NCBI RefSeq assembly: GCF_024684275.1
Contig: NZ_JAIKXF010000055.1
Coordinates: 113,604-177,603, forward strand
Direction: 5' to 3'
DNA length: 64,000 nucleotides
DNA from: Ruminococcus sp.
Lineage (GTDB): Bacteria > Bacillota_A > Clostridia > Oscillospirales > Ruminococcaceae
Shown here: positions 7,041-64,000 of the stretch, piece by piece
Layout: every line of letters begins with the position of its first letter
Numbering within the stretch: position 1 is the first letter of the stretch
Notes under the pieces: generated by a model
Told to the model about the DNA's origin: nothing
The model's database searches: none
What the model saw: the letters and a program-made list of their open reading frames with translations, nothing else
Translations under genes and position numbers: made by a program

Positions 7041-8099
7041 TTATTTTCTGAAGTAGTTTTCAAGCACTTCCATAAAACGTGCATTCTCCTCAGCACTTCC
7101 CGATGTGATACGGATCGCGCCATTGATTTTTCTTATTGCAATGGAATTATCAAGCATGAACTGATATATCTTCTCAGCCTCATCAGTTTTTATGAACACA
7201 AAGTTAGTGCAGGTATCGTATACCTTTTCAAAGCAGCTGTATTTCTCGTTGAGAGCCGTAATATCGCTGTGGAGCTTCTTTGTGTTTGCGATGATAGCGG
7301 CGCGGCAGTCTGCAAGGTACTGCTTCTCGCTGAGTATATCCGCAACTATGGTCTGCGCTACACTGTCGTTGTTATACGGAGATTTAGCTGCACGTATAGC
7401 ATTGGTTATGGTCTTGTTTGCAACTGCGAAGCCGAATCTTACAGCTGCCATACCGATAGCCTTTGAGCAGGTCTTTAAGATAATGAGATTGCTGTAATTA
7501 TTGACCTCGTCAAGAATTGACTGATCCCAGAAATCCATATATGCTTCATCAAGGATAATGAGTACATCTTCAAGAGACTCTATTATCTTTCTTACAGCAG
7601 CTCTGTCAAGACCGAGTGATGTTGGGTTACAGGGATTTGAGAAAATAAGTCCCTTTGCGCCTTTTTCCTTGCAGAAGGCAATGAGCTTGTCAGGATCAAT
7701 TGTCAGATCTGCTTCCTTCTGGTAGGTCTCAACATTTACCTCGTAAAGCTGTGCGTAGAACTGATACATTGAAAAATCGTAGGATACATTCACCACTGTG
7801 TCCCCTGCCTCAAAAAAGCAGCCCTCAATAATGCTGATAAGCTCATCTGAGCCGTTTCCCGCGCTGATAAGCTCCTCAGGAACGTTATAAAGCTCTGAAA
7901 ATGCCTTTATGGGAGCCTTTGCAAGACAGTCGGGATAGCGGTTGAAATCTATCTGGGAAATGCTTTTTGCTATCTTTGACTTTAAGCTGTCATTAAGATT
8001 GAAGAAGCTCTCGTTAGCGTCAAGTCTTATGTCGTAGTGTCCCGTGATAGGATCATAGGGCACTAAGTTTACCAGCTTTTTATTCAGTTTGTAACTCAT
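7041..8099 (-). CDS. hisC: Histidinol-phosphate aminotransferase
   Basis: This 352-residue class I/II PLP aminotransferase has the Schiff-base lysine at Lys213 (LKTCSKAIGMAAVRFG), the cofactor-binding SNPCNPTS near 154-161 and DEAYMDF near 184-190. It transfers the glutamate amino group to imidazole acetol phosphate. A 65-bp gap with a stem-loop separates it from hisD upstream. Confidence 0.95.
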   Translation of the reverse strand: MSYKLNKKLVNLVPYDPITGHYDIRLDANESFFNLNDSLKSKIAKSISQIDFNRYPDCLAKAPIKAFSELYNVPEELISAGNGSDELISIIEGCFFEAGDTVVNVSYDFSMYQFYAQLYEVNVETYQKEADLTIDPDKLIAFCKEKGAKGLIFSNPCNPTSLGLDRAAVRKIIESLEDVLIILDEAYMDFWDQSILDEVNNYSNLIILKTCSKAIGMAAVRFGFAVANKTITNAIRAAKSPYNNDSVAQTIVADILSEKQYLADCRAAIIANTKKLHSDITALNEKYSCFEKVYDTCTNFVFIKTDEAEKIYQFMLDNSIAIRKINGAIRITSGSAEENARFMEVLENYFRK

Positions 8100-10080: not shown

Positions 10081-11273
10081 ATATTTACCTCCTTGCTCTC
10101 GCCGTCAATAACGACTACCTTTGCTATCTTTTTCTCCATAGCGTATTCGCGGACACTTTCAAGGTCATCAAAGAGAGCGTTTTCAACGATAAGTCCCTGC
10201 TCGCGGAGCTCCTTTGCAGCTTTAAGCGCAGCAACCTCGCAGCCTTCCTCAGCGTATACGATAACGTCAGCCTTTGGCTCAGCGGGAAGAACGTCGCTCT
10301 TTTCCATGAGCTTTGCAACAGCGTTGATGTTTACAGCAAAGCCTATAGCAGGTACGTCGTAGCCGAATTCTGAGATAAGCTTGTCATATCGTCCGCCCGA
10401 GAGAACTTCCTCGCCGTGGCCCTGTAAATAGCCCTTTATGATAAGACCTGTATAGTAATCGGTCTTATTTACCAGTCCGAGGTCAACGGTTATTGAACCG
10501 TCGCCGCCGCAGAGCTCGGAAGCATCTGCGTATATCTCCTTGAGCTCGTCGAGGATACGCTTGATATTGTCGTCAGGCATGAGCTCCTCAGCCTTCTCGA
10601 ATACCTCCTCGCCGCCAAAGAGTGCAGGGAGCTTTTTGAGAGCTGTAGTTACAGGAGAATTTCCGAAGCTGTCCAGCAGGTCGTTAAGTGCAGGGAAATT
10701 CTTATTTTCGATGAGCTTTCTGATGTTTTCCTTGTCCTTTTCGGAGGCGTCAAGCTTGCTTACAAGCTCCTTGAAAATTCCTATATGACCGAGCTCCAGT
10801 GAGAACTCCATGCCAAATGAGCTGAGTGAATCAACAGCTGTTGATATTACCTCAAGGTCAGCCATTTTCAGCTGTGAGCCGATAAGCTCGATACCTGCCT
10901 GTACTACTTCGTCGCTTCTGCCCTTTAATGACGGCTCGGTGGTATATACCGCCTGAGCGTAGCAAAGCTTCAGCGGAAGAACAGCATCTCTCAGACGAGT
11001 TGCAACTATTCTTGCGATAGGCATTGTGGTATCCGGACGCATTACCAGAAGTCTGCCCTTGCTGTCTGTGAGCTTGTACAGGTTTTCCTGCGGAAAATAG
11101 CGTGAATTAAGGTTGAATACATCAAAAAACTCCAGACCGGGGGTAATGGTCTCGCTGTAGCCGCTGCTTCTGAAAAGCCCCATGAGAGTATTCTCTATAT
11201 TTCGTCTAACTATGCACTCGCCAAAGAGCAGATCCTTTGTGCCCTCTGGAGTGATAAGGTCATAATTTTTCAT
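10077..11273 (-). CDS. hisZ: ATP phosphoribosyltransferase regulatory subunit
   Basis: The 398-residue protein is a catalytically inactive relative of histidyl-tRNA synthetase that assembles with short HisG and confers histidine feedback control. HisRS-like class II features include TPEGTKDLL near the N-terminus, VMRPDTTMPIARIVATRL (motif 2 region) and GGRYDKLISEFG (motif 3 region). The anticodon-binding domain is replaced by a short C-terminal part. The start at 11273 (MKNYDL) is chosen because AAGGAGG lies directly upstream; a longer reading frame lacks a good site. It is the first gene of the operon. Confidence 0.95.
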   Translation of the reverse strand: MKNYDLITPEGTKDLLFGECIVRRNIENTLMGLFRSSGYSETITPGLEFFDVFNLNSRYFPQENLYKLTDSKGRLLVMRPDTTMPIARIVATRLRDAVLPLKLCYAQAVYTTEPSLKGRSDEVVQAGIELIGSQLKMADLEVISTAVDSLSSFGMEFSLELGHIGIFKELVSKLDASEKDKENIRKLIENKNFPALNDLLDSFGNSPVTTALKKLPALFGGEEVFEKAEELMPDDNIKRILDELKEIYADASELCGGDGSITVDLGLVNKTDYYTGLIIKGYLQGHGEEVLSGGRYDKLISEFGYDVPAIGFAVNINAVAKLMEKSDVLPAEPKADVIVYAEEGCEVAALKAAKELREQGLIVENALFDDLESVREYAMEKKIAKVVVIDGESKEVNI

Positions 11274-58280: not shown

Positions 58281-58808
58281 ATGGGTTTATTCTCATTTTT
58301 CCAGGGCGGGGCTAAATATTTTGATAAAAAAATAGAGCCTAAGTGCGATTACTGTATGTACGGTAAGAGGACAAAGGACGGTAACAGAGTTCTTTGCGAA
58401 AAAAGAGGCCTCGTTGAACAAAATTATTCATGTAAAGCTTTTATATATTCTCCATTAAAGAGAATTCCTGTAAAACAGCTCAGATTTGTTGGCAGTATTG
58501 CTGATGATGACCTCTATATCGAGTCAAAGGGCGACCGTACAGAAAAGGAAGAGGCTGAAAATAAGACTTCAGCTAAGAACAAAAAAACTGAATCTAAGCC
58601 ATCGGCTCCTGCACCGTCAGCTCCTGCCGCTCCTGCTGAACAGCCTGCTCAGAACGCTCAGCCTGTTCAGAACACTCCTGCCCCACAGGCAGATGAGGCT
58701 GATAAACCTGAACAGCCGAAGGAACAAAAGACTGCCGAAAACGAAGCTAATGATAATACTGAAAATGCTTCTGCTGCAGAGACAGCTGCAAAAGCGGAAA
58801 ACACCTAA
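58281..58808 (+). CDS. Protein with Cys-rich N-terminal domain and low-complexity C-terminus
   Basis: The 175-residue protein has a short conserved-looking N-terminal domain (about 1-75) with CDYCMYG, then LCEKRG and SCKAFIY, four cysteines that could bind a metal, and FIYSPLKRIPVK. The C-terminal 100 residues are Glu/Lys/Ala/Pro-rich and presumably disordered. I recall similar small proteins (MGLFSF... CxYC ... LCxKRG) in related clostridia but know no function. No signal peptide or membrane helix. It has its own promoter and terminator. Confidence 0.7.
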   Translation: MGLFSFFQGGAKYFDKKIEPKCDYCMYGKRTKDGNRVLCEKRGLVEQNYSCKAFIYSPLKRIPVKQLRFVGSIADDDLYIESKGDRTEKEEAENKTSAKNKKTESKPSAPAPSAPAAPAEQPAQNAQPVQNTPAPQADEADKPEQPKEQKTAENEANDNTENASAAETAAKAENT

Positions 58809-58864: not shown

Positions 58865-58893
58865 TTGACAAAATATATATTTTAGAGTATAAT
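58865..58893 (+). promoter_or_regulatory. Consensus promoter of the tRNA-Leu region
   Basis: TTGACA (58865-58870), 17-bp spacer, TATAAT (58888-58893), both exact consensus. It lies 18 bp before the first tRNA-Leu-like unit and is the only strong promoter seen upstream of the intact tRNA-Leu. Confidence 0.9.
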
Positions 58894-58910
58894 TACATTT
58901 GTTGATTCAT

Positions 58911-59018
58911 GTGGGTATGGCGAAATTGGCATACCCACCAGATTTCGTTCGCGCTACGTCATTGGTTTATAAAACTGCTCCCTGTCGGCAGTTCAATTCG
59001 ACAGTCTTAATTTAATAT
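58911..59018 (+). repeat. tRNA-Leu-like unit 1 (5' half plus foreign block)
   Basis: It starts GTGGGTATGGCGAAATTGGC, nearly identical to the first 35 nt of the intact tRNA-Leu(UAG), and then switches inside the anticodon loop after GATTT to a block beginning CGTTC (58946 onward) that is shared with units 2 and 3. A T-arm-like TTCAATTC occurs near 58992, but there is no matching 3' acceptor strand and no CCA. In this copy the 5' half can fold as a 9-bp hairpin by itself (GTGGGTATG with CATACCCAC). Confidence 0.85.
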
Positions 59019-59122
59019 GCGGGTATGGCGAAATTGGCATACGCACCAGATTTCGTTCACGATACGTCATTGAATTATAAAGCGGCTCATCTGTTTGTAC
59101 ACAATCAACAAAATTTAATATC
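59019..59122 (+). repeat. tRNA-Leu-like unit 2 (5' half plus foreign block)
   Basis: Its first 35 nt are identical to the 5' half of the intact tRNA-Leu(UAG) at 59231. It then follows the same CGTTCACG... block as the other units, and its 3' part is more diverged (no clear T-arm-like sequence). No acceptor 3' strand. Unit spacing from unit 1 is 108 bp. Confidence 0.85.
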
Positions 59123-59230
59123 GCGGATGTGGTGAAATTGGCAGACACGTTAGATTTCGTTCACGCTACGTCATTGGTTTTATGATACTGCTCCTGTCGG
59201 CAGTCAAATTCGATAGTCAAAATTGAATAT
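59123..59230 (+). repeat. tRNA-Leu-like unit 3 (5' half of a different tRNA-Leu plus foreign block)
   Basis: It begins GCGGATGTGGTGAAATTGGC and continues AGACACGTTAGATTT, the 5' half of a different bacterial tRNA-Leu type, and joins the same CGTTCACGCTACGTC block at the same point of the anticodon loop. A T-arm-like segment (CTGTCGGCAG...) remains, but no acceptor 3' strand exists. Confidence 0.85.
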
Positions 59231-59315
59231 GCGGGTATGGCGAAATTGGCATACGCACCAGATTTAGGTTCTGGCGGAGAGATCCATGCAGGTTCAACTC
59301 CTGTTACCCGCACCA
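59231..59315 (+). tRNA. tRNA-Leu (anticodon UAG)
   Basis: An 85-nt class II tRNA: acceptor GCGGGTA pairs with TACCCGC, discriminator A, encoded CCA. The anticodon stem CCAGA/TCTGG encloses TTTAGGT (anticodon TAG); a variable arm and the T-arm CAGGTTCAACTCCTG follow. No promoter lies directly upstream except the one before unit 1. A mobile element begins on its downstream side. Confidence 0.96.
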
Positions 59316-59321
59316 AAAATT

Positions 59322-59350
59322 AAGCCGTAGGGTTATCCCTACGGCTTTCA
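59322..59350. terminator. Bidirectional terminator between tRNA-Leu and the recombinase gene
   Basis: An 11-bp perfect stem (59322-59332 with 59337-59347), TTAT loop, with A-rich and T-rich flanks. Confidence 0.88.
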
Positions 59351-59352
59351 TT

Positions 59353-60927
59353 TTAGTCATTAATTTCAAAGCACACTGTGCTTGAATCATGAAAGTCTCC
59401 GTTGAACTCTAGCGACACATCAAGGCTGCCGTCTTCATTTTCGTGGACGTTTATTTTCCGAACGAGCAGTCTGATATTGGTGTCGCTGATATATGGTTCG
59501 AGCAGCACCTCGTCCAGCAATTCTGCTGTGGACATCAGCTCGTCGCGACGTTTCTTGCTGAGCTCGTCAAACTTCCTGCAATCTTCTATCTTCTGTGTCA
59601 AATACGCTATCTCAGCTTCACGCTTTTCAATCATTGAATTGTAGACCTTAGCGTGTTCACGGTCGCCAATACGCTCCATAATAAGTTCCTCGATCTGACC
59701 TTTGAGCCCGACTATCTTCTCACTATAATCCCTTATCATTTTATCGTACTTTGGCTTCTTCCTGTTCCAGTTTTTTATAATCTCATCGTACTTCTTACTG
59801 GAATCATGGATCTCGTTTCTGAGCATTGCAAGCTCCGTATGGATAATATCATCGAGCTGAGGTTCGCGGATAGTGTGAGCGGTGCAGTATTCGTTACCGT
59901 ATCGATGGTTGTTGTTGCAGGTGTACTCCACCCATGAGTTGCCTGCGACAGTTCTCTTTTTAGCTATGAGGCTCGCTCCACATTCGGCACATTTTATCAT
60001 ACCACAGTACCTATGGATGACACTTCCGTACTTCGCCCTCGCGTGATTTTTCAGCCTGCTTTCAAGCAGTATCTGTGCTTGATTGAAGGTCTCGCGGTCG
60101 ATAATCGCAGGCATAAAGTTCTCATGACGGTACTGTTCTTCGGACGGAATAACATCCACTGTCTTGTAAATCTTTGACGTCACAGTCTTGTGGTTAACAA
60201 GAGTTCCTGTATACGCCTCGTTCTGAATTATACGCTTGACCGTTGTTTGCGCCCACAGAAATCTTTTTACGATTTCTGTGTGACGTGGATTCCTTTTTCT
60301 GTGAGAGAAATATTCCGGTGACTTTATACCGCGGCGGTTGAAGTCCTTGGCGATAGTGCTCAGTCCGTAGCCTTCAAAGAACTTCTCGAATATTTCTCTG
60401 ACTATCGCTGCCGCCGTTTCATCGACCAGTACCTCACCTGTGAATTTATCCTTATAGTATCCCATCGGAAGGTTCACAGGCATTCCTGTTTTTTGCTTCT
60501 GTCGTATGCCGGCACGGACTTTCTTGCCAATATCTTTGGCATAAAAGTCATTGACGAGCTGCTTGAATCCGATTATCATATCATCATTCTCGTTCGAGGA
60601 GTCAATACCCTCGGTCACTGAATACACCTTGACGTTGTTCTCGCGCAAGTAGTCGATGAACAGTGCCGTACGTGTACGGTGTCTGCCAAGTCGGGACAAG
60701 TCCTTGACCAACAGGATGTCGACCTTTCCGTCCTCGACTGCTAGCTCTATCTGGTGAAGTCCCTTGCGCTCGAATGTCATACCCGATACGTTATCGTCAA
60801 AGCTTTCACCAACTATGTCATAACCATTCTGCTCGGCATAGTCTACAAGTATCTGACGCTGATTCTGAAGGCTGTTCATCTCGGCGTCCTCGTCGCGTGA
60901 CAGTCTATAGTATAACCATGCTTTCAT
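59353..60927 (-). CDS. Large serine site-specific recombinase
   Basis: The 524-residue protein has an N-terminal resolvase catalytic domain (about 1-145; nucleophile Ser10 in YYRLSRDE, and Arg residues in LVKDLSRLGRHR), a recombinase domain (about 160-270), a zinc ribbon (CAECGASL ... CNNN ... EYC near 310-355), and a long coiled coil (about 380-460) typical of TndX/TnpX-like integrases. It would cut and join att sites for integration or excision of the element that begins here. It converges on the tRNA-Leu gene. Large serine recombinases usually do not target tRNA genes, which makes its position notable. The start is at 60927. Confidence 0.93.
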   Translation of the reverse strand: MKAWLYYRLSRDEDAEMNSLQNQRQILVDYAEQNGYDIVGESFDDNVSGMTFERKGLHQIELAVEDGKVDILLVKDLSRLGRHRTRTALFIDYLRENNVKVYSVTEGIDSSNENDDMIIGFKQLVNDFYAKDIGKKVRAGIRQKQKTGMPVNLPMGYYKDKFTGEVLVDETAAAIVREIFEKFFEGYGLSTIAKDFNRRGIKSPEYFSHRKRNPRHTEIVKRFLWAQTTVKRIIQNEAYTGTLVNHKTVTSKIYKTVDVIPSEEQYRHENFMPAIIDRETFNQAQILLESRLKNHARAKYGSVIHRYCGMIKCAECGASLIAKKRTVAGNSWVEYTCNNNHRYGNEYCTAHTIREPQLDDIIHTELAMLRNEIHDSSKKYDEIIKNWNRKKPKYDKMIRDYSEKIVGLKGQIEELIMERIGDREHAKVYNSMIEKREAEIAYLTQKIEDCRKFDELSKKRRDELMSTAELLDEVLLEPYISDTNIRLLVRKINVHENEDGSLDVSLEFNGDFHDSSTVCFEIND

Positions 60928-61680: not shown

Positions 61681-63129
61681 ATGTTAAAACGAGCCGAAAG
61701 CAAGCAAATGAAAATGTCATTTGTGACACTTGAAGAACTAATGCCGCAGGAGCATTTTCTGCGAGATCTTGATAGACTTGTAGATTTTGATTTCATCTAT
61801 GACAAGGTCGCTGATCTGTATTCAAATACAGGAAGGCCTGCGATTGATCCTGTTGTAATGATAAAAATGATGCTGATTGGATATATCTACGGTATCGATT
61901 CTGAGCGTAAACTTGAACAGGAGATCACAGTAAATATTGCTTACCGTTGGTTCTTAGGAATTGACTTTGATGAACGTGTTCCGGATCACTCAACTATCTC
62001 ACAGCTTCGTCGCAGAAAATTTGATGGTACAACAATTTTTAGAGATGTCTTTGATGAGATCGTTCGTAAGTGTTTCGAGGCAGGTCTTATTGATGGCAAG
62101 CTCCTTCTAACTGACTCTACACACATCAGAGCGAATGCACGTAATGATCTCCGTGAGGTTATTGAAGTACCCGACACTCCAAGTGAATATATACAGAAGC
62201 TTGATCGTGAAGCGTATGAGCTTGGTCTTATCAAAGAGCCTGTTGAATATGATACTGCAAAAACTAAAGAAATCACCAAAAGCGTTACAGATCCTGAATG
62301 CGGACTGATGAAGCGTCCGGGAAAGCCTACAGGATTTCACTATCTGAATCATCAGACCTGCGATTCAAAGCATGGAATGATTACTGATGTTTTTGTTACT
62401 GCTGGAAATATCAAGGATTCTGTTCCTCACGTTAAACGAATCGAGTACCAAATTGAAAAATTCGGTTTCACTCCTGATGCAATCTGTGCGGATGGCGGAT
62501 ATGACAGTCGAGAAGTATATGAAGCAATGATAAAAAAAGATATTGCAGCATATATACCGCAACGAGAGAAACCTACTCCTAACTGTAATTATACTGAAGA
62601 ATACTCGCCCAATAATTTCATATATGATACCGACAATGATTGTTATCTTTGTCCCGCAGGGAGAATACTAAAGTATTCATCTTATTGTAAAGGTAAAGGC
62701 GTAAAACGTTATGCTGCAAAAAAATCAGAGTGTCAAAACTGTCCACATAAGGAAAAATGTATAGGTAAGTCGAAAATTGGCAGACGGATTGAACGTCATC
62801 TTCATGAAGAAGCCAAAGAAAAACAAATGCAACATGCCGGAACGCCTGAGTACTATGAAGCTATGCGGCTACGAAAAATATGGTGCGAGGGAAATTTCTC
62901 TCATCAAAAAGAACAGCATAATTTAAGACGCACTCGAAAGAGGGGCATTGAACGAGTTACCGAGCAATGCCTCTTATCGGCATGCGCCTTAAACTTAAAA
63001 AGGCTTGTAGAGATACTATTTTACATCAATATTCAGTTATTATTTCAGTCCGAAAGCTATTCGGGCTGTTTTTTATTGCAAAAACATGGGTTTGTCAACA
63101 GCACCGTTTTGCAACGTCAGCTCCTGTAG
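61681..63129 (+). CDS. IS1182-family DDE transposase
   Basis: The 482-codon frame has the IS1182/IS4-type layout: an N-terminal DUF772 domain (PQEHFLRDLDRLVDFDFIYD ... IDPVVMIKMMLIGYIYGI, YRWFLGIDFDERVPDHSTIS), the catalytic region with DSTHIRANA and ADGGYDSREVYE, a Cys-rich zinc cluster (CPAG...CQNCPHKEKC) and the terminal Glu region with EGNFSHQKEQHNLRRTRKRG. GAGGTAG precedes the ATG. The frame lacks a stop inside the element: it reads through the internal terminator and right inverted repeat and ends at TAG 24 bp into flanking DNA, which adds an abnormal C-terminal tail. The normal stop, expected soon after ALNLKRLVE, may have been lost. Confidence 0.92.
   Translation: MLKRAESKQMKMSFVTLEELMPQEHFLRDLDRLVDFDFIYDKVADLYSNTGRPAIDPVVMIKMMLIGYIYGIDSERKLEQEITVNIAYRWFLGIDFDERVPDHSTISQLRRRKFDGTTIFRDVFDEIVRKCFEAGLIDGKLLLTDSTHIRANARNDLREVIEVPDTPSEYIQKLDREAYELGLIKEPVEYDTAKTKEITKSVTDPECGLMKRPGKPTGFHYLNHQTCDSKHGMITDVFVTAGNIKDSVPHVKRIEYQIEKFGFTPDAICADGGYDSREVYEAMIKKDIAAYIPQREKPTPNCNYTEEYSPNNFIYDTDNDCYLCPAGRILKYSSYCKGKGVKRYAAKKSECQNCPHKEKCIGKSKIGRRIERHLHEEAKEKQMQHAGTPEYYEAMRLRKIWCEGNFSHQKEQHNLRRTRKRGIERVTEQCLLSACALNLKRLVEILFYINIQLLFQSESYSGCFLLQKHGFVNSTVLQRQLL
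63046..63074 (+). terminator. Terminator inside the IS right end
   Basis: A 9-bp stem with wobble pairs (63046-63054 with 63060-63068), AGCTA loop and TTTTTT. It lies within the open frame of the transposase, supporting the idea that the original stop codon was upstream. Confidence 0.75.
63106..63110. repeat. Target-site duplication, right copy
   Basis: GTTTT directly right of the IS, matching 61602-61606. Confidence 0.75.
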
Positions 63130-63378
63130 CTCCTTCCCCTGCTCCAGCAACTGATTGTATATCGTCTGCTGATTTTTCAGGTACAGTTTCATTTGTGCAT
63201 ACGTCATGGTCACATCTGTTTGAGCCTTGACTTCCAACAGTGTATCCGTCAGCAATTCCAGCTGTGATATCACTGCCTGCCAGTTGCTTTCCTGGACGCA
63301 GACCATAGTTGGTATGTCCTGTGCCTCCTGCATGTTCTCTTTGGAGGCAGCTTTCAATTTGTCTAATTTTGAACTCAT
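63106..63378 (-). pseudogene. N-terminal part of the nested mobilization gene
   Basis: In a frame different from the relaxase, the gene starts at 63378 with an AAGGAG box (about 63383-63390) and reads MSSKLDKLKAASKENMQEAQ, then a predicted coiled coil (WQAVISQLELLTDTLLEVKAQ ... YLKNQQTIYNQLLEQGKELQELTLQN), where the IS cuts it. The other half is at 61398-61606. Rebuilt, it is a coiled-coil protein with a C-terminal membrane helix lying wholly within the relaxase coding region, an arrangement like the nested mbeB/mbeD genes of ColE1-type plasmids or mobB of RSF1010. Confidence 0.68.
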
Positions 63379-64000
63379 ATTCCATATTCTCCTTCCTGTA
63401 TTTTGCTTCGTGAAGCTTGTTGTCTCGGCATCTCCTTCCGTTGGGACAAGTGTATGTGATATACTTACGATTGTCCTCCCATTTGACATCGTAGCCGTAC
63501 TGCTTCATGTAGAAACGGAATTGTTTCTTGCTCTTAGCTCTTTTCATGACTGCTTCAATGGTATTTGCGAGATCCATTTTCCAACTCTCACCACGCATTG
63601 CAACACGATACTCGCCGTTAGTGACGCCGTTGCTCTGCTTGTGAAGCTCAGGTTTGATGAGAGTTGTAACTCCGTATTTCTGACATATCTCGTCTGACAA
63701 TTGCCGCAGGTCTTGCAGTGTGAACTTGTTCGAGTGATACTTCAAACCAGTCTCAGCATTGACTGCATTGAGTACGAAATGTGAGTGTATATGATCGGCG
63801 TCGATATGAGTTGCAACTACAACTTCGTGTCCAGGGAAGGCTCTACCCGCGAATTCAACTGCTATCTTGTGAGCCCTCTCGGGAGCGATATTGTAGCCGC
63901 TGGGGTGAGACTGTACGAAGTGATAGTAACGTATCCCGACAGTCTTGCCGTACATCTCTCTTGTGTTTTTGAATTCCTGATAGGCAGTCGGCAGCGAACA

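Follow-up and report, generated by a model that had tools for sequence, protein, structure and literature searches.

Why would a stretch of Ruminococcus DNA carry three 5' halves of a tRNA-Leu gene in tandem, ahead of an intact copy? The stretch analysed here, 64,000 nucleotides of contig NZ_JAIKXF010000055.1 and hereafter the window, holds this array at positions 58865–59315, where three tRNA-Leu(UAG) 5' halves are each joined within the anticodon loop to one 22-bp block (P' below), with an intact tRNA-Leu(UAG) downstream. ARAGORN and Rfam (at its gathering threshold) recognise a single tRNA in the region, Leu(TAG) at 59231–59315. The first-pass annotation, made from the letters alone, had proposed either repeated recombination at the anticodon loop, with the units as scars of mobile-element insertion, or a selected family of tRNA-like RNAs. 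Its description of the layout is accurate: the units begin at 58911, 59019 and 59123, with spacings of 108, 104 and 108 bp up to the intact tRNA at 59231, and all three switch directly after GATTT to CGTTCRCGMTACGTCATTG. The promoter that it placed ahead of the first unit (TTGACA-17-TATAAT, 58865–58893, forward strand) matches the consensus at 12 of 12 positions; we read it as the promoter of the resident tRNA-Leu, and, judged from this promoter, transcription of the array together with the tRNA is plausible. The third unit had been ascribed to another leucine tRNA type, which is wrong, as it represents another tRNA-Leu(UAG) allele: its half (GCGGATG...TTAG) equals the 5' half of the intact tRNA-Leu(TAG) in other Ruminococcus genomes (for example at loci L023, L042, L043 and L045).

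All array features lie on the forward strand, behind a conserved open reading frame of 175 aa (58281..58808) that serves as a left-flank marker, with matches to its first 97 residues in 90 of the 125 genus genomes. The first stranded half, B1 (58911–58945), runs into P' at 58943–58964 and a spacer with an H-type pseudoknot at 58973–59004 (AACTGC/GCAGTT with CTGTCG/CGACAG; score reached in 0/30 shuffles). B2 (59019–59053) is followed by P' at 59051–59072 and a spacer of a second type (59073–59122), in which the pseudoknot is not significant (best score reached in 5/30 shuffles). B3, the GCGGATG allele (59123–59157), is followed by P' at 59155–59176 and again by a pseudoknot at 59187–59216 (ACTGC/GCAGT with CTGTCG/CGATAG; 0/30 shuffles). 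Beyond the intact tRNA (59231–59315), a hairpin that is terminator-like on both strands (59322–59347) fills the gap before the recombinase gene described below. Over 58911–58938, B1 and B2 differ by two substitutions, both of which complete a 9-bp hairpin, GTGGGTATG/CATACCCAC; the B1 hairpin was possibly selected against pairing of the stranded half with the tRNA 3' half.

Recurrence of the block is not due to chance, because with up to three mismatches it occurs at 45 sites in 26 of the 125 genus genomes, compared with one match for the reversed control pattern. The exact pattern is present in 17 stretches of the public genome collection, titled Ruminococcus in 16 cases and Bacillota in one, and has no exact match among the viral contigs; in the phage and plasmid collections, the best 20 of 54 and the best 20 of 48 matching records, respectively, align mainly with the tRNA part of the query. 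On contigs that extend far enough, an intact tRNA-Leu is found 3' of the block, and none of the relatives examined has complete tRNAs with decay in place of the array. It is highly improbable that the array arose by tandem copying of a single scar or by homologous recombination between tRNA-Leu genes. Adjacent units, in the window as elsewhere, mostly have different tRNA alleles, P' variants and spacer types; they are not simple tandem duplications, an origin that the first-pass annotation had called hard to reconcile with the junctions. The window units are also not each other's closest relatives throughout, the opposite being seen, and junctions of one kind occur at two distinct tRNA-Leu genes, in both cases next to a recombinase from a single family. 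Some duplication does occur, since adjacent units at L050 and at L058 share identical spacers.

The recombinase gene lies on the reverse strand (59353..60927) and ends with its stop codon 37 bp away from the intact tRNA. It encodes a large serine recombinase of 524 aa, with the Pfam domains Resolvase (PF00239), Recombinase (PF07508) and Zn_ribbon_recom (PF13408) above their cut-offs. A convergent tRNA-Leu (TAG or CAG) is present within 6 kb of the recombinase 3' end in 32 of 45 close copies (at least 44% identity, in fetched loci), of which 11 are biased, being the window or loci fetched through the array pattern; by locus source the figures are 11/11 for these and 21/34 for loci found through the recombinase. 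This count omits L046–L048, L103–L105 and L118 (places already covered), L102 (a duplicate of L043), and alignments that are shorter than 250 residues or stop before residue 440. Among the 13 close copies that lack a convergent tRNA-Leu, L080 and L083 adjoin a displaced tRNA 3' half and several others lie near contig or locus ends. Distant recombinases have no tRNA of any kind in the same position (0/16; 20 loci around distant relatives, four dropped for alignment length; for 13 of the 16 counted, the tested side extends 5.7 kb or more).

The region beyond the recombinase is common to TAG and CAG loci. A relaxase gene lies beside the recombinase in the window and in the elements of genomes G009 and G031, which thus have a recombinase and a relaxase of their own, as in an integrative and mobilizable element. 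The window relaxase is MobA/VirD2-like and partial (63095..63955, reverse strand; Pfam Relaxase, profile positions 37–131 of 132). A DDE transposase open reading frame within the element body (61681..63129, forward strand; Pfam DUF772 and DDE_Tnp_1_6) overlaps its end, a hint that an insertion sequence sits beside or within the relaxase gene. In G009 the element codes for a relaxase, a DnaB-like AAA protein and a RES-domain protein, and no conjugation machinery was found among the 10 of its proteins that were scanned. It also carries defence-type genes: AbiH, a type II methyltransferase, PDC-S14 and a retron II-A reverse transcriptase, which lies together with its NDT partner between the tRNA-Leu and the recombinase (L023, 11813–13978).

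The window stops 4.7 kb past the tRNA, before any far end. In other genomes, displaced tRNA-Leu 3' halves lie behind a common half-site, P, of about CCAAYRACGTTRCAYTAYCA, with the junction P-TT-AGG. A P pattern ending in TTAGG, built from the consensus of real junctions, matches in 13 of 125 genomes (reversed control, 0), and a tRNA-Leu 3' half comes next in 11 of the 13; in G072 and G001 the sequence continues otherwise. Narrower patterns gave 2/125 genomes (strict orphan 3' half) and 1/125 (P from L020 only; reversed control, 2). Of the 26 main-block genomes, six (G004, G005, G009, G013, G015 and G071) have the far junction as well, and the remaining five of the 11 far junctions come from genomes lacking the main block pattern. 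When 14 array genomes were searched for 3' halves, nine had only the last one of the array (G002, G003, G006, G007, G012, G018, G030, G031 and G053). Many arrays thus lack a visible far end, an absence that has to be put down to decay, deletion or contig breaks.

Where both ends lie on one contig (G009, G015 and G060), a tRNA-Leu(tag) is located between the two junctions, and a single stranded 5' half pairs fully (7/7 and 5/5) with the displaced 3' half, the remaining halves doing less well. The displaced half of G004, on another contig, best fits B1, and those of G005, G013 and G071 single out no one stranded half. Pairing of 12/12 with the array's own 3' half (G-U allowed) is seen for the last 5' half in 30/30 arrays and for 17/48 upstream halves. 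ARAGORN identifies the rejoined halves of G009 and of G015 as tRNA-Leu but likewise accepts the mismatched hybrid of L020, so this rejoining test discriminates poorly and it is the pairing counts that carry weight. An empty site is available for G009: from nucleotide 4 onwards, the DNA after its displaced 3' half matches the DNA directly after the intact tRNA-Leu in the array-free genomes G024 (88% over 449 bp) and G026 (93% over 369 bp). The comparison brackets an insertion of about 17 kb, and on this alignment the G009 element is an insertion in the tRNA-Leu anticodon loop. Nesting is visible in G005, where another recombinase follows about 150 bp beyond the displaced 3' half. The junctions on both sides and the matching of halves lend good support to the earlier suggestion of repeated recombination in the anticodon loop through mobile-element insertion.

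The attP of a large serine recombinase is about 40–50 bp long, with dyad arms and a common central dinucleotide. Locus L020 contains an attP-like site, P-TT-P', with the dyad arms CCAATG...CATTGG; at 10709–10890, its neighbours are a consensus promoter, a recombinase remnant (last 93 residues) and a tRNA-Leu whose halves are mismatched. The hybrid tRNA combines halves of two alleles, which fits exchange at the same point; it falls outside the pairing test, as its array has a single recognised half. L020 was also considered as a circle and rejected because its ends do not overlap and its recombinase is truncated. A promoter directed outward at the right end of the element scores 12/12 in L020 and 11/12 in L080, and the other 11 of 13 ends score 7–10 of 12 (values without a shuffle control); such a promoter as a general feature was dropped, being strong only in these two. 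At L046, L047 and L083 (G034, G038) a displaced tRNA-Leu 3' half lies behind a non-P sequence that recurs 3' of the tRNA elsewhere, perhaps a rearranged end. A conserved motif 3' of the tRNA was dropped as an attachment site on account of mismatched central bases. D-arm deviations total 12 in the 18 first halves, 7 in the 25 middle halves and 6 in the 18 last halves; a third of the first-half total stems from one locus, and the counts are therefore not used as evidence of decay.

The same organisation exists at tRNA-Leu(CAG). Units of 5' half, P' and spacer precede this tRNA at L056–L059 and L061–L063, where the recombinase is 58–65% identical, and two 5'half-P' sites lie upstream of the tRNA in G018. 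The far junction reads P-TC-AGGTCC at L053 (about 13843) and L055 (about 16586), that is in 2/11 CAG loci, three of which (L059, L060 and L061) are blind to the pattern, since even the intact tRNA goes unmatched. L055 presents the full order: attL at 2020, about 5.6 kb, the tRNA at 7711 with a promoter-like sequence just before it, recombinase, relaxase and attR. The bases shared by the junctions are TT in UAG loci and TC in CAG loci, which we take to be tRNA positions 33–34. Judging from these junctions, the crossover dinucleotide would include the first base of the anticodon.

A mobile element of rumen bacteria thus appears to split a tRNA-Leu gene and to bring a complete replacement, several times in succession. 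Very probably, three mobilizable elements integrated in succession, one within the other, at a single tRNA-Leu(UAG) gene, and the array is the record of this on the left-hand side. Comparison among genomes demonstrates the junctions on both sides, the empty site, the matching of halves, the tie between recombinase and tRNA-Leu and the CAG version; catalysis by the window recombinase, use of the resident promoter to transcribe the new tRNA and need for the tRNA are what we infer. Comparison also identifies the block as the P' half-site of such an element, which encodes a large serine recombinase. The element begins with P', continues with either a pseudoknot spacer or a cargo gene, then a complete tRNA-Leu, optional cargo, serine recombinase, relaxase and other genes, and ends with P. 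In the proposed integration, the recombinase would join attP (P-TT-P') to an attB located in the resident gene's anticodon loop (5'half-TT-3'half). The resident 5' half would remain behind its own promoter as 5'half-P' (attL), the resident 3' half would be moved to the far end as P-TT-3'half (attR), and the complete tRNA of the element would take over from the split gene. The next element would then target the newly brought tRNA and add one more 5'-half unit; element bodies may later decay while the 5'-half scars persist.

Applied to the window, B1 would be the resident half, with the P' of insertion 1 behind it and the crossover presumably in the TT of GATTT; B2 would have arrived as part of the tRNA of element 1 and been split by insertion 2, and B3 with element 2 and been split by insertion 3. 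The intact tRNA and the recombinase would belong to the newest, element 3. This order can only be inferred, because the window stops before any far end. Nested integration also has its costs: bodies must often be lost, as many genomes have stranded 5' halves with no visible far end, and the displaced 3' half behind non-P sequence at L046 and L047 counts against it.

Some units contain genes between the P' block and the next half (L019, L025, L027, L028, L036, L037, L041, L051 and L086). They encode a Cys-rich protein of 86 aa (L019, L041), a protein of 143/144 aa (L025, L027) and a rhomboid-domain protein (L037), with further open reading frames in L028, L036, L037, L051 and L086. Two GNAT acetyltransferase genes (L036, L049) and two related open reading frames (L025, L028) precede the first half recognised at their loci and are thus only candidate members of a unit. 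The L019 and L041 genes differ at 2 of 86 residues, and the flanking P' blocks and tRNA halves are different on either side. Similarly, L025 and L027 share one cargo gene in different genomes, and the flanking P' and tRNA-half sequences differ. These cases hint at cargo exchange between elements, and for L019/L041 nested integration needs extra recombination.

Such units could instead be integron-like cassettes, circles of P', cargo and 5' half, down to about 105 bp, inserted singly by the serine recombinase. An integron has a tyrosine integrase, IntI, and attC sites, and consists of one promoter followed by genes separated by recombination sites. The array may resemble it in having a single promoter and then a gene array with recombination sites between, the genes that follow a P' block being candidate cassettes, but it has neither IntI nor attC, the adjacent recombinase is of the serine family, and the newest unit would lie next to the tRNA, farthest from the promoter. 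Cassettes would account for one gene unit in different contexts (L019/L041, L025/L027), for GGAGG directly after the site in gene units (L019, L025, L027, L041 and L086) and for the many arrays without a visible far junction. They would also suit the uniform length of the short units, as 46 of the 47 extracted (44 distinct spacers) are 103–109 bp long, although only gaps of 61–109 nt between halves were taken. A pure cassette model was demoted on account of the displaced 3' halves: these halves behind P, their match to stranded halves and the empty-site flank are not predicted by it. Cassettes further predict many tRNAs with mismatched halves, whereas last halves match in every array tested and the sole hybrid noticed, that of L020, is outside the test. 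We therefore regard cassettes as improbable and retain nested integration as the preferred account.

The spacers without genes raise a separate question. An H-type pseudoknot is found in 31 of 44 distinct UAG spacers, related sequences that are not independent cases (score reached by at most 2/30 dinucleotide shuffles), and the same arrangement is the best fold in 26 of the 31; 12 second-type spacers and one first-type spacer have no such score. By eye, both stems vary between UAG subfamilies and CAG loci with pairing kept, as in ACTGC/GCAGT, CCTGC/GCAGG and CTCGGT/ACCGAG for the first stem and CTGTCG/CGACAG, GCTCT/AGAGC, GAGTCC/GGATTC and GAATCT/AGATTC for the second, although MAFFT left the second stem unaligned across the full set of CAG spacers. 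The recurrence of this fold and its paired variants would be expected if the array existed for selected tRNA-like or pseudoknot RNAs made from the units, the other possibility raised by the first-pass annotation. As such it is unsupported, and we consider it very unlikely: the pseudoknot is absent from second-type spacers and by eye was not seen in cargo-gene units, the 31 cases share ancestry, Rfam gives the spacers no family match even at a relaxed threshold, and integration alone accounts for the junctions. Within nested integration, our guess is that the pseudoknot shields the tRNA from the competing stranded 5' half.

A bolder version of nested integration, which we put forward tentatively and consider rather doubtful, is that the locus could act as a promoter-anchored capture array. 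Each integration would take the resident promoter, supply the sole working tRNA-Leu and deposit a cargo gene or a selected pseudoknot RNA in between. Cargo would accumulate and stay expressed, even without the element bodies, as an essential tRNA is last in the operon, and the first anticodon base in the crossover dinucleotide would set which tRNA-Leu is hit.

The closest known system is tRNA-dependent lysogeny, described for mycobacteriophages and relatives with tyrosine integrases and, in Table 2 of that report, cores of 8–17 bp (PMC10865867). As in the Ruminococcus elements, the host tRNA target is there not rebuilt at the junction (here attL is 5'half-P' and attR P-3'half) and a full tRNA of matching isotype comes with the element; in contrast to those tyrosine-integrase phages, the elements described here are mobilizable, with a serine recombinase and a relaxase, and have a probable 2-bp shared core, natural nested arrays and cargo between scar and tRNA. 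In a review of integrative and mobilizable elements (IMEs; PMC5704250), those with serine recombinases are said to disrupt dispensable genes, the tRNA targets presented belong to tyrosine integrases and lie at the 3' end, and tandem accretion is described. The present elements resemble these Firmicutes IMEs in combining a single serine recombinase with a relaxase and differ in targeting the tRNA-Leu anticodon loop, with replacement. Islander-type tRNA islands (PMC4383910) share the tRNA target and a far end marked by a displaced fragment, but there tyrosine integrases act and the gene is restored from island sequence, whereas the present elements supply a whole tRNA and leave the 5' half stranded. 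Among the open-licence papers retrieved, titles and abstract openings contain no serine-recombinase element with a replacement tRNA at the anticodon loop and no account of this Ruminococcus array; the term tRNA is absent from the main text of PMC10083194.

What is new relative to tRNA-dependent lysogeny is the serine recombinase, the mobilizable element, natural nesting, the cargo genes and the recurrent pseudoknot between scar and tRNA. The idea of tRNA-dependent integration, formulated in 2024 for tyrosine-integrase phages, thereby comes to include mobilizable elements of rumen bacteria with a serine recombinase. Integration of a second plasmid into the tRNA of the first, a speculation by the authors of PMC10865867, has its nested outcome displayed in natural genomes. 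Successive insertions at one tRNA gene leave an easily recognised record, and serine recombinases are tied to anticodon-loop targets that offer different central dinucleotides. It also becomes possible to test how cells manage when an element exchanges a probably essential tRNA.
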